This document shows, piece after piece, positions 1-5,241 of a DNA stretch of 5,241 nucleotides (position 1 is its first letter; each line of letters starts with the position of its first letter). The translations under genes and the position numbers were made by a program. Source of the stretch: Promethearchaeota archaeon (GTDB taxonomy: Archaea; Asgardarchaeota; Lokiarchaeia; Sigynarchaeales; SOKP01); the NCBI GenBank assembly GCA_014729315.1, contig WJKD01000535.1, positions 1 through 5,241 of the forward strand, written 5' to 3'. The notes beneath the pieces are model-generated. The model was not told the origin of the DNA, ran no database searches, and worked only from the letters and a program-made list of their open reading frames with translations.

Positions 1-649
1 GAACAACATTTTTTGGTGGACTAGTTTTTGAAGAAGAAGATGTAGATATATTTGGTCTAGAAGAGATTGATTTAGCTTTTTTCGTAGTTGATTGGGTTTC
101 AGGTTGCATTTTAGGTGTAGGAGTTGATGTGGTTTTCTCTGCTACAGCTGATTTCTTGAGGTTCTTTAGTGCCGGAGAGATAGATTCTTTCTTTTTCTTA
201 TCCACTTTCACGATTTTTGGAGACGTATCAGGAATTTCACCACGATCGTACATTTTTTCTCGTTCGACATTTCTAATATACCTCATATCGGCTAACTTTT
301 CTTTAACTTCCATCGATTTGAAATTAAAAGTCCTTAAAAATTCTCGGGGTTCGTCACCCTGATCGACGGATACGATCTTACAACGATGAAATGCTGCTTC
401 TTTAACTAGTTCCTCTTGGAGTGCACTAGCAACTCTTGAGCTTATAAATCGCTTCCTCACGTGGGATTTTGAACCTTTCCAGATAAATATTCTTCTAATA
501 TCTTCTTTAACTATTACGACAACTTGTTCAGGATGTAAGATATTCTGACCGTTATCTTCACGAAAATAGTCTTCGGTTATGTTTAATCGCTGTCTTTCAC
601 CAGAATCATTTAATTCGTAAACCATGAAATAATCGTAACTGTCTGACAT
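1..649 (-). CDS. Gelsolin-like domain protein with Lys/Ser/Thr/Pro-rich tail, 3' end off the window
   Basis: An ATG at 647-649 opens a frame that stays open to the left edge, giving 216 residues without a stop. Residues 5-108 resemble one gelsolin/severin/villin repeat. The core strand IRRIFIWKG (51-59) matches the family's hydrophobic-x-W-x-G strand. It is followed by a basic amphipathic helix (about 62-83), the strand KIVSVDQG and the signature DQGDEPREF (96-104), close to the eukaryotic 'dqGkEpeeF' pattern. Residues 111-140 are a charged helix. From 144 onward the chain is disordered, with about 16 Lys, 23 Ser/Thr and 8 Pro in 73 residues. In the family such domains bind actin and often calcium; Asgard archaea encode gelsolin-like proteins that act on actin, and this family assignment is from recognition of the motif. 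I see no Shine-Dalgarno sequence before the ATG, consistent with a short leader from the TATA element near 684. A second domain may follow off the window, so total length and actin activity are unknown. Confidence 0.8.
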   Translation of the reverse strand, partial: MSDSYDYFMVYELNDSGERQRLNITEDYFREDNGQNILHPEQVVVIVKEDIRRIFIWKGSKSHVRKRFISSRVASALQEELVKEAAFHRCKIVSVDQGDEPREFLRTFNFKSMEVKEKLADMRYIRNVEREKMYDRGEIPDTSPKIVKVDKKKKESISPALKNLKKSAVAEKTTSTPTPKMQPETQSTTKKAKSISSRPNISTSSSSKTSPPKNVV

Positions 650-895: not shown

Positions 896-1588
896 TTATT
901 GATCGTGCATCACATTATCAATGCTGAGCACAAAACCTACTAATATCCGTCTATCTGTAGTATTATCGTGGATTCTTAAAGCGTAGGTGTCCTTAAAATC
1001 GAACATACCTCCCAAGAAGATATCCCGCCATCTATCAGCTTTTTCTATCTCTGCAATAATTTCACCGCTAGAGAGATCTTTTACCTTGAAGGAGAATCCC
1101 ATAAAATTGCCGACAGCCTCGTACCAACGATTACCTTCGGGATCTTCCAAATAGAATTTTGGTTTAAACAATGTGAGAATCTTCTTTTTTATACGAGCAA
1201 TAAGATTACCCTCGGGATCTTTGAGATCTTGGGCGCCTCGTGCTGAAATCAATTTGGCGTGAATAGTCGCAGCAACAGTCCCGTCTAATTCTCTGAGTTC
1301 TACCTTTCTTCGAATGCTTAAAATCTTCCTTTTCATCTTGCCTATTACATTTCCATCTTTATCCAAGATGTCTCCAGAACCCCAGTCCCAATAACCTTCT
1401 TTGAGTATGTAATAATTACGATTTAAGTCAAATAATCCTCCATTTCCAGTAGAAGGCGCTGGTTGGAGTGCAGATGCTGCTTTTGATTTCTCTTGTTTCT
1501 CTTCGATATTTTCTGGTAGCTTAGATCCGCAAGATTCGCAGAAATTCTGATTTGGGCGGACTTCCGCACCGCAGTTTGGACAATTCAA
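896..1588 (-). CDS. Zinc ribbon fused to a LURP-one-related (Tubby-like barrel) domain
   Basis: The 230-residue product begins with a short zinc ribbon, CPNC (3-6) and CESC (17-20), whose four cysteines would bind one zinc ion. A charged, then Ala/Pro-rich linker (25-50) leads into a beta-rich domain of about 175 residues (55-230) that resembles the LURP-one-related/YxjI family, related in fold to Tubby and phospholipid scramblase barrels. Visible hallmarks are successive 'DxxGNxI' hairpins (77-82, 124-130, 149-153) and a hydrophobic C-terminal segment, RILVGFVLSID (214-224), which in the family forms the helix threading the barrel. Two strand pairs are near copies, DKDGNVIGKMKRKIL and DPEGNLIARIKKKIL, 47 residues apart. 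There is no signal peptide and no convincing membrane segment, so it is probably cytoplasmic, possibly at the membrane surface. The start is TTG: the frame has an upstream stop at 1610-1612 and no ATG or GTG, and the first CxxC pair begins at residue 3. Function is unknown; scramblase activity is not implied. Confidence 0.85.
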   Translation of the reverse strand: MNCPNCGAEVRPNQNFCESCGSKLPENIEEKQEKSKAASALQPAPSTGNGGLFDLNRNYYILKEGYWDWGSGDILDKDGNVIGKMKRKILSIRRKVELRELDGTVAATIHAKLISARGAQDLKDPEGNLIARIKKKILTLFKPKFYLEDPEGNRWYEAVGNFMGFSFKVKDLSSGEIIAEIEKADRWRDIFLGGMFDFKDTYALRIHDNTTDRRILVGFVLSIDNVMHDQ

Positions 1589-2549: not shown

Positions 2550-3311
2550 ATGTCAAGTATTCCGTCTCTTCTTAAACATAAAGATTATATAACTCTCATC
2601 GGCACGACGTTAGGTGTAATCGCCCTTATATGTGCTGTATTAGGAACTAGAACTTTTGTATCTGTTGGATTTTTTCTCATCTCGTTAACATTAGGAACAG
2701 ATTTATTAGATGGGTTTATCGCTCGCAAAACTGGTACGGTAAATAAAATTGGTATTGAATTGGACTCGTTGTCTGATTCTCTAACATTCGGAATCGCTCC
2801 ATCGATTCTTATATTTCAAGCTTTTAAGAGAGGAACACCTTATGATATTTTCTTAATTATTGGTTGCGCTTGTTTCGTATACGGAGCGATCCTCAGACTT
2901 GCCAGATTTAATATTACCGTTGAAGAAGAACCGGGATACAAAGGAGTTCCAACACCATTGAGTTGTTTAATGGTGATCACATTTTTTTACGCAAATTATT
3001 TCTATGTGTTAGCTTCAGGGGATCCAACTTATCCGTTTATCGATATTTCTTACTATGCAGTTCCGGTAATAATGATTTTAATAGGCTGGTTTAACATAAC
3101 AACATATATACAATTTAAAGAGAAGGGCAAAGGGGTCTACATTTTGTTCCTCGTATTTGCTCCTCTATCTCCCATTTTTGGCATTGTGGGATTATTATTA
3201 ACTAATTTCGCTGTTTTAATCTTTGTTTCTTTCTTTTTCTTAATTGCTTTTTTCTTTTTAATTGGATATGTAATCGTTGGTTTCGTAATAAACGCAAGAA
3301 ATAAGAATTAA
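2550..3311 (+). CDS. pssA: CDP-diacylglycerol/CDP-archaeol-serine O-phosphatidyltransferase (archaetidylserine synthase)
   Basis: This 253-residue integral membrane protein carries the complete CDP-alcohol phosphatidyltransferase signature, D51-x2-D54-G55-x2-A58-R59-x8-G68-x3-D72-x3-D76. The four aspartates bind the divalent metal pair and activate the attacking hydroxyl. The later motif LRLARFN (115-121) with GVPTP (132-136) is characteristic of the PssA (serine) branch rather than of glycerol- or inositol-phosphate enzymes. In archaea that branch transfers CDP-archaeol to L-serine, giving archaetidylserine and CMP; the acceptor is inferred from family. Hydrophobic segments lie at about 13-31, 36-50, 80-92, 98-116, 136-155, 168-183 and 196-247, the last long enough for two helices. 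That gives about eight segments, more than the short bacterial form and usual for archaeal members. The ATG is supported by the TATA element 20 bases upstream and no credible upstream start. No decarboxylase partner is visible nearby. It converges on the coiled-coil gene, stop to stop, across 68 bases. Confidence 0.92.
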   Translation: MSSIPSLLKHKDYITLIGTTLGVIALICAVLGTRTFVSVGFFLISLTLGTDLLDGFIARKTGTVNKIGIELDSLSDSLTFGIAPSILIFQAFKRGTPYDIFLIIGCACFVYGAILRLARFNITVEEEPGYKGVPTPLSCLMVITFFYANYFYVLASGDPTYPFIDISYYAVPVIMILIGWFNITTYIQFKEKGKGVYILFLVFAPLSPIFGIVGLLLTNFAVLIFVSFFFLIAFFFLIGYVIVGFVINARNKN

Positions 3312-3379: not shown

Positions 3380-5241
3380 TTATAATAGTCTTTTCTTCCA
3401 CGATTCAATCTCCTTCTGAATCTTCTTAATGTCTTCTTGATTAAGGATTTCGTCTTTTAATTTATAATCATTGATTATTCTACTAATATCGTGTAAAGTG
3501 ACGGAAAAACCTTTTTTCTCCAAGATAATGTCAGCAATTTCTTGCAAATTAGCACTAAATTGATTACCCTTCATTTGATTTAGAGTATTAATAAGAGTTT
3601 GAAATGCTAAGTTTATTTGTTTTGCAACTTCTGGTCTTGTTTTTGGTTTATTAATCTTTGGGGTTTCTTTAGATAACTGATCTTTCTTTTGAACTCCTTT
3701 ATCTAATTGATCTGACTTAATTACCTTAGTTTTTTCCATAGTTTTCGCTTCTAGATCAGATTTAGTCGTTTTTGATTTCGGTATAATTTTATGCGGTTTC
3801 TCCAAGAGGATAGTATCTAACTTCTCAGATGTGTCATGCTGTTTTTTGCTTGGAAATTTATCCAATGGCATTGTTTCTTTTGTTATATACGCCTTCCCTT
3901 CACCAGCTAACCAAACCGCATCAATAATCGGATTTAATAATTTAATAAAATCCTCATTGTTTGTAGCGATTCCTAAAAAATCGTCAAAATTTTCCTTCGA
4001 ATTGTTTTTCAGTAAACCCATTATTAATAGTTTTTCGTCGCCATTCACTAAGATGATGTTTTCGTTGGATATTTTTTTAAATGTTATATTTTCAAGTTCG
4101 TTTAATTTTTGAACTATACTATTAGAATGAGGATCTGCTGAAGCAATTTTAACGCGAACATTGTCAATTCTGTCAATAAACTGTTCTTTTCTTATGTAAT
4201 CTTTAATTTTTGGGATTATAATTGTTATTTTTTGGTTAGAATTGGAAATAACATTTAATAGTTCTTCTTTAATTTTGTATTGACTATTAATCTGCCACAA
4301 TTGATCGATAGCGATATTTTTGACTGCATATTCATTATTGACGAAATCTTTCAGTAAATTCTCAATTGGAATATTTAAACCTGCTACTTGGTTCAAAGAG
4401 TCGTAGACAATTTCCTTTATGTCCAAGAGAATTGTATCTTTTAGAGCTTTTTTTCTTTTTTCTAATGTTTCAATTTCACTCTCTATGGATCTTTCTAACG
4501 AATTTATTTTTTTCTCAAAACTACGAATCAGATTAGCATAAAGGTTATTCAGTTCTTCAATAGTTCTTTCAGATGTGTTTAATCTCTTTTTAAAAGGGTT
4601 AAGTATGTTATTATCTATAGGCTCCTTAATCTTATCGAATTCTTCCTCAATTAACTCATTTAGGTTGACACTGAACTCGTCAAGCATAGTCTGTAGGTTA
4701 GATTTAAACGATTCTTCTATAATTCTTATAATTTCTTCCAATGTTTCTGTTTTTTTAAATTCTATAGTTTTTATGTTGTTGTTGATTTCTGTTTTTATCG
4801 TTGTTAAAATTTTAATGAGATTTGCAAATTGGATTTGAGTTATCCCCTTAATTTTTTGATGAAGATCTCCAAAAATCTTCTTTAAAGGTGATTCTAATTC
4901 CTTAAACTTTTCAATTTTTTTAGCCTTTTTGATTAAATCAGCAACATCCTCTTTCTGAATGAAAGTATCTTCATTAAAATCCTTTTTTATTTCATTAAAT
5001 CTATTATATAATGAATTAAGGTCTATCTTCTCTTTCTTTGTAAAAATTTGATTTAATGAATTTATCATAAGACCATAGACAGCATCTTTAATGTTCGGTA
5101 GATTAGAATTAATGTTTAAGTAATAATTTAGAATTGGATTAAAAGGGGGAATAGCGAAATAATGCAACAGGATCTCGGAACTCTTTGGGACTATTTTAAC
5201 TAATAAATCAGCATCAGTTAATTCTTTAATTACGAAAGAAA
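3380..5241 (-). CDS. Large coiled-coil protein with a TrmB/PLD-like domain lacking HKD residues, 5' end off the window
   Basis: The frame ends in TAA at 3380-3382 and is open to the right edge, giving 619 visible residues. The only possible start inside is a TTG at 5165-5167, but the 24 codons before it read as ordinary protein (e.g. IKELTDADLLVKIVPKSSEI), so the true start is probably beyond the window. Numbered from that TTG codon: residues 40-310 are mostly alpha-helical with heptad-like coiled coil at about 125-250. Residues 312-422 form an alternating strand-helix domain (KITIIIPKI; VRVKIASADPHSN; NENIILVNGDEKLLIMG; FDDFLGIAT; FIKLLNPIIDAVW). This resembles the phospholipase D-like fold at the end of TrmB-type regulators; the place where PLD enzymes have HxKx4D reads NENIILVNGD, so it should not be catalytic. 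A Lys-rich linker (425-512) leads to a compact helical domain (515-595). No signal peptide or membrane segment is seen. If the missing N-terminus holds a winged helix it would be a regulator; otherwise a structural or scaffold role is possible. Function unknown. Confidence 0.75.
   Translation of the reverse strand, partial: SFVIKELTDADLLVKIVPKSSEILLHYFAIPPFNPILNYYLNINSNLPNIKDAVYGLMINSLNQIFTKKEKIDLNSLYNRFNEIKKDFNEDTFIQKEDVADLIKKAKKIEKFKELESPLKKIFGDLHQKIKGITQIQFANLIKILTTIKTEINNNIKTIEFKKTETLEEIIRIIEESFKSNLQTMLDEFSVNLNELIEEEFDKIKEPIDNNILNPFKKRLNTSERTIEELNNLYANLIRSFEKKINSLERSIESEIETLEKRKKALKDTILLDIKEIVYDSLNQVAGLNIPIENLLKDFVNNEYAVKNIAIDQLWQINSQYKIKEELLNVISNSNQKITIIIPKIKDYIRKEQFIDRIDNVRVKIASADPHSNSIVQKLNELENITFKKISNENIILVNGDEKLLIMGLLKNNSKENFDDFLGIATNNEDFIKLLNPIIDAVWLAGEGKAYITKETMPLDKFPSKKQHDTSEKLDTILLEKPHKIIPKSKTTKSDLEAKTMEKTKVIKSDQLDKGVQKKDQLSKETPKINKPKTRPEVAKQINLAFQTLINTLNQMKGNQFSANLQEIADIILEKKGFSVTLHDISRIINDYKLKDEILNQEDIKKIQKEIESWKKRLL

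Follow-up and report, generated by a model that had tools for sequence, protein, structure and literature searches.

A gelsolin-type domain at the head of an apparently widespread multidomain protein of Asgard archaea

Introduction

What does a gelsolin-type domain do when it forms the head of an archaeal protein that runs on into a long disordered tail? The question is raised by a contig assigned to the Lokiarchaeia (Promethearchaeota archaeon, WJKD01000535.1), the whole 5,241 nucleotides of which are referred to here as the window. Its minus strand carries an open reading frame (ORF), 649..2, with an ATG start and 216 amino acids (aa), that runs open into the window edge; the sole contig listed for the protein is this one of 5241 bases, and the 3′ end of the gene is cut by the contig end. 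The ORF, the contig listing and the alignment mark these 216 codons (2..649) as the 5′ part of a gelsolin+X gene of 1DGelX-like type, X being a second conserved domain of the relatives. The window domain almost certainly has a gelsolin-type fold, and membership of the protein in the gelsolin+X family is very probable. Fold, family, the domain order in relatives, the changed calcium-ligand positions and the conserved neighbourhood are all results of computation.

Evidence for a gelsolin-type domain

An earlier note, made from the sequence alone, had proposed a gelsolin domain of Asgard origin. The domain is borne out, beyond chance, by profile search, by matches to sequences in the Protein Data Bank (PDB) and by the predicted fold, and the Asgard origin by the same PDB search, whose top five matches (E 2.5e-5 to 0.0022) all belong to Asgard chains of gelsolin type. 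The Pfam Gelsolin profile (PF00626) matches the window protein at E 0.0013, yet its 19 bits fall under the curated cut-off of 21; the relatives L022, L068 and P0013 score 22.1, 21.3 and 21.8 bits. The AlphaFold2 model is confident across residues 1-120 (ten-residue block means of 77-95) and displays the gelsolin-repeat fold, a five-stranded sheet with one long and one short helix. In the top 50 rows from Foldseek and from VIA-align alike, every entry belongs to the gelsolin superfamily or is an actin complex whose partner is of gelsolin type; VIA-align ranks first ProGel in its actin-bound structure.

The domain covers residues about 7-112 (314..631, minus strand, like every feature of this gene), and the three motifs named in the earlier note are all present. 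The IFIWKG strand (473..490) contains the WxG gelsolin signature as WKG at residues 57-59, and R52, R53, I56, W57 and G59 are invariant in 57 alignment rows. The long basic helix spans residues 64-83 (401..460), and DQGDEPREF (338..364) forms the domain's final strand and its short helix. HRCKI is among the extra invariant residues of the family, which ProGel lacks. Behind the domain follow a conserved segment of residues 113-134 (248..313; M113, D121, Y124, R126 and N127 invariant) and a disordered basic linker rich in Ser, Thr, Pro and Lys (residues 135-216; 2..247), identified by model and composition. The note's disordered tail of at least 70 residues comes to 82 by count, and confidence there is low: 47 residues have a predicted local distance difference test (pLDDT) value below 50 and the remainder mostly lie at 50-80. 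Residues 151-216 carry a net charge of +12.

Domain architecture of the family

A homology search found 495 proteins at E <= 1e-3 among 691 candidates; the best 120 of the 495, the window protein included, were listed. Longer relatives appear solely in genomic loci because this first search was limited to proteins of no more than about 378 aa, which is 1.75 times the query length. The 105 listed proteins of at least 300 aa, the long relatives, all contain domain X by profiles built partly from the same rows; the window ends before X. Each of these 105, and each of 79 locus proteins, has a single match to the gelsolin-type N-terminal domain, the window protein itself being cut. A short conserved motif in the linker, SPAL in the window (167..178), recurs as SPA[LIMF] in 87 of the 105, and an LPxIP-type motif lies close to the C-terminus in 95.

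Beyond X, 65 of the 105 carry a SAP-like module. This count comes from a profile that replaced a regular expression missing most copies; another expression matched two rows only, and the SAP counts may be low because the profile rests on these two seeds. Pfam families found at E <= 0.1 in 51 members, chosen mostly for a SAP-like end, were Gelsolin (42), Rho_N (39), HeH (39), SAP (18) and Ish1 (8). Among the 40 long relatives with no SAP-like module, 29 have a net charge of +8 or more in the last 60 residues. In the model of one 367-aa relative, P0004, a disordered region follows the gelsolin domain; X then folds into one helix plus five strands (205-292) and the SAP-like module into two helices (320-352), and the cores of X and SAP reach block means of 82-95.

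The window's missing 3′ half, we infer, follows these relatives. In the tree it clusters with L001, which has a SAP-like end, and with L002, L005 and L015, which have basic ends (support 96/72, not starred); its own C-terminal end is not predictable because the group mixes both types. The suggestion that the tail links to a second domain is borne out in relatives, where that conserved domain is not recognised as gelsolin by sequence. The relatives also hold more than a bare tail, often ending in a SAP/HeH-type module beyond the second domain. X itself matched PDB sequences at E 0.23 at best, and structure searches with the long P0004 model returned rows filled by gelsolin, so that the X fold was barely probed.

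Variations on this layout occur. Seven proteins have two X domains by profile (L020, L021, L037, L044, L052, L056, L077), and in L115 and L116 a stand-alone X ORF of about 90 aa adjoins a gelsolin+X ORF. A gelsolin+X paralog (L075:7995-9047) ends in a helix-hairpin-helix match rather than a SAP-like module (HHH_5 E 8.6e-5, under cut-off). The divergent L112, L118 and L129 have PPPTPPKK-type proline runs in their linkers, which may be profilin targets. X as a free small protein was rejected in a search that could find proteins of about 51-163 aa: 17 of 18 matches lie on contigs of 726-2710 bases, and the five of the 18 that were inspected look like fragments of longer proteins; the two stand-alone ORFs of L115 and L116 speak the other way.

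Calcium-ligand positions

The earlier note had also put forward calcium dependence as a point to check, and the sequence makes it unlikely. Positions 66 and 78 are, we assume from gelsolin structures, the type II and type I calcium ligands. In the Asgard alignments of the PDB sequence search, K66 faces an acidic residue in all eight domains of the two-domain 2DGel proteins (Glu in seven, Asp in one) and Lys in ProGel; in the alignment Q78 faces Asp in five of the eight domains, and gaps or inserts adjoin the position in the remaining three. Lys occupies position 66 in 107 of the 120 listed proteins, and the 79 locus proteins counted all have Lys or Arg there; Gln occupies position 78 in 117 of the 120 and in 79/79 locus proteins, and Arg does so in 19 of 20 divergent proteins. 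Three of the 120 fell out of register in this count, and the motif was absent from one of 80 locus proteins. PMC9433394 states that Thor, Heim and Loki 2DGels keep both calcium sites in each of their two domains. Calcium control of the window domain is unlikely because Lys66 and Gln78 replace the acidic residues of the 2DGel domains.

Distribution among Asgard archaea

The arrangement looks like a wide Asgard architecture, as far as sequence matches tell. Where given, the source names among the best 120 of the 495 matches are Promethearchaeota or Thor-, Loki-, Hermod-, Hod- and Odinarchaeota. A scan of a species-level genome collection yielded 92 relatives, of which 80 were kept, all titled Lokiarchaeota or Lokiarchaeia. 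Within the phylum of one reference genome (G001), the family profile matches 205 of 227 genomes at E <= 0.001, many of these matches being weak and perhaps other gelsolins, and the X profile matches 134 of 227. Among divergent X loci that were fetched, all 20 have a gelsolin domain within the same ORF. A profile search with divergent members gave 897 matches among the scored candidates; for the minority of the best 120 with named sources these are Thorarchaeota, Lokiarchaeota or Promethearchaeota, and one subsurface metagenome. With 495 relatives at E <= 1e-3 and X in 134 of 227 same-phylum genomes, the form is not rare.

Relation to known Asgard gelsolins

The class was probably named earlier as 1DGelX in PMC9433394, passages of which count two such proteins in MK-D1 and three in GC14_75 and cite a 2020 paper for the class; the name implies one gelsolin domain plus something else, as here, and the likeness is by name alone. 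A widespread divergent gelsolin-like Asgard protein annotated as hypothetical, cls.008013 (Lokiarch_14920), may be a gelsolin+X protein as well, a comparison by description only; passages of PMC6393860 (2019) list this cluster as ‘Related to Villin-1/gelsolin’ in seven of eight Asgard genomes. ProGel (Thorarchaeota, PDB 7c2f) is a single-domain protein in the corresponding passages of PMC9433394, whereas the window domain heads a longer protein, 216 aa and incomplete. Asgard 2DGel (7c2g, 7c2h, 7whf, 7whg) shares the gelsolin fold and the Asgard host with the window protein but has two gelsolin domains with calcium sites, as opposed to one domain with changed ligand positions. Loki and Heim 2DGel forms carry C-terminal extensions, as passages of PMC9433394 report. 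The C-terminal module of many relatives matches the SAP, HeH-LEM and Rho_N helix modules in Pfam, the window's contig ending earlier, and these overlapping names leave DNA, RNA or protein binding undecided. New here are the way the domains are laid out, the substitutions at the calcium-ligand positions, the conserved neighbourhood and the actin-bearing gene row of the paralog; among the listed titles, abstract beginnings and passages of the open-licence literature, none describes domain X, the SAP/HeH terminus or the row around the short paralog.

Gene neighbourhoods

The window holds three further genes, in the same order and orientations, with the gelsolin+X gene, as Lokiarchaeal ortholog loci, by a neighbourhood criterion of our own. 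The nearest (896..1588, minus strand) encodes a zinc ribbon and a LOR/scramblase-like domain (Pfam LOR E 1.8e-11, Scramblase E 7e-5). The second (2550..3311, plus strand) encodes a CDP-alcohol phosphatidyltransferase nearest to phosphatidyl- or archaetidylserine synthases, under the NCBIfam cut-offs. The third (3380..5239, minus strand), its 5′ end cut by the contig, encodes a long conserved protein with no Pfam family over cut-off that measures 658 aa in L020. Ortholog and paralog groups were taken from the tree (L080, with no family ORF by the rule used, was excluded), giving 49 ortholog loci, 35 of them with 3.5 kb upstream, and 30 paralog loci, 27 of them testable. The synthase-like gene and the long protein lie upstream in the same orientation in 35/35 testable ortholog loci, and the zinc-ribbon LOR gene in 29/35, with the opposite strand in three of the other six; none of the three was found in any of the 27 testable paralog loci.

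Between the LOR and synthase genes, 1600-2540 of the window leaves nearly 950 bases in which the ORFs are all short (77 and 50 aa). A scan of the window with Rfam at gathering scores and for transfer RNAs gave no match, and the interval possibly consists of gene remnants. A scan of 600-1000 for sigma-70 promoters and terminators found four promoter-like sites, where shuffled sequence gave 3.1 on average, and no terminator-like sites.

A different row surrounds a short gelsolin+X paralog, which profile scans of genomes placed near an actin-family gene on several contigs. Ten such regions were fetched, eight of them selected for proximity to an actin-family gene, which inflates the following counts: gelsolin+X and a Roadblock gene in 10/10, a VWA gene in 8/10, an actin homolog and an ACT-type gene in 9/10. 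In L131-L138 and L140 the row consists of the paralog, Roadblock, ACT-type, actin-family and mostly VWA proteins, interrupted by other ORFs in L136 and L138; L139 has the row without the actin part, an actin-family gene lying some 90 kb off on the same contig. One representative of each family matched Robl_LC7 at E 7.7e-6, VWA at E 9.4e-9, Actin at E 3.2e-45 and ACT at E 1.3e-4, the last under cut-off. All 20 genomes selected among the loci have an Actin (PF00022) match over cut-off, with a best E of 1.7e-87 or lower; 6 of 14 controls score too, through bacterial relatives of actin.

A possible actin tether and its alternatives

How might such a protein work? The single, calcium-independent N-terminal domain of gelsolin/ProGel type would bind archaeal actin via its long basic helix; the conserved segment and flexible basic linker would join it to the beta-rich domain X; and the C-terminus, a SAP/HeH-like module or a basic tail, would hold nucleic acid or another anionic surface. 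The whole would act as a flexible tether and bring that surface together with actin or a regulated actin end. Actin binding by the window protein is reasonably likely, and the chances that the complete protein has an end holding nucleic acid or another anion are evenly balanced. Actin binding, nucleic-acid binding and the tether role are what we infer, and the combined tether, the reading we favour, is a tentative proposal. Several observations count against it. The C-terminal half of the window protein lies beyond the contig end, and the nearest long relative, P0002, has X and a short end with no SAP module. The SAP-like module is weakly positive (median net charge +1, range -3 to +7, n=65), and 11 of the 40 ends that lack it are not strongly basic. 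No actin-contact residues could be mapped onto the window model, and a fold by itself does not demonstrate function. The row with the actin gene is that of the divergent paralog and not of the window gene, and the orthologs' neighbours are lipid-type genes and an uncharacterised protein, with no actin genes.

A membrane-linked regulator of cortical actin finds its chief support in these lipid-type neighbours; here the gelsolin domain would sit on actin and the linker, X and basic tail on anionic lipid, alongside the LOR/scramblase-like and phosphatidylserine-synthase-like neighbours. The synthase-like gene accompanies every testable ortholog and the LOR gene most of them, neither was found at the testable paralog loci, the nearest gene matches the LOR and Scramblase profiles and the tails are basic. 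We nonetheless regard this as unlikely: the LOR gene and the gelsolin+X ORF are separated by a median of 208 bases (29 loci), hence no tight operon, the synthase gene is on the opposite strand, and the C-terminal modules resemble nucleic-acid-type families. Gelsolin domains can also act without actin, as in Sec23/Sec24, where they are protein-protein adaptors. The sub-threshold Pfam score, the changed calcium-ligand positions, the invariant residues absent from ProGel and the Roadblock gene adjoining the short paralog in every fetched region would all suit a gelsolin fold reused as such an adaptor, for example for Roadblock or small-GTPase partners; but an actin-family gene stands in the same row in nine of ten regions and the best fold match is ProGel bound to actin, which leaves the adaptor improbable. 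An Asgard gelsolin of the ordinary kind, regulated by calcium and trailing an unstructured tail, would account for the fold and the Asgard kinship; K66 and Q78 at the calcium positions, together with domain X and often a C-terminal module in the complete relatives, make it very unlikely indeed. A cofilin-like role for the basic helix was also considered and set aside.

Outlook

Asgard gelsolins, profilins and actins are among the main evidence for a regulated actin skeleton older than eukaryotes, and passages of PMC9433394 describe 2DGel and ProGel as studied for severing, capping or sequestering. For the attachment of that skeleton, the gelsolin+X family supplies named proteins for testing. 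A direct link between actin filaments and the chromosome, made by Lokiarchaeal gelsolin+X proteins with SAP/HeH (LEM-like), helix-hairpin-helix or basic histone-H1-like ends, is a long shot; if true, it would be a prokaryotic forerunner of the actin-chromatin links at the eukaryotic nuclear envelope. With its wide spread, a gelsolin head devoid of calcium-ligand residues, a second domain that is conserved and interchangeable ends of nucleic-acid type, the family may tie the archaeal actin skeleton to another component of the cell.
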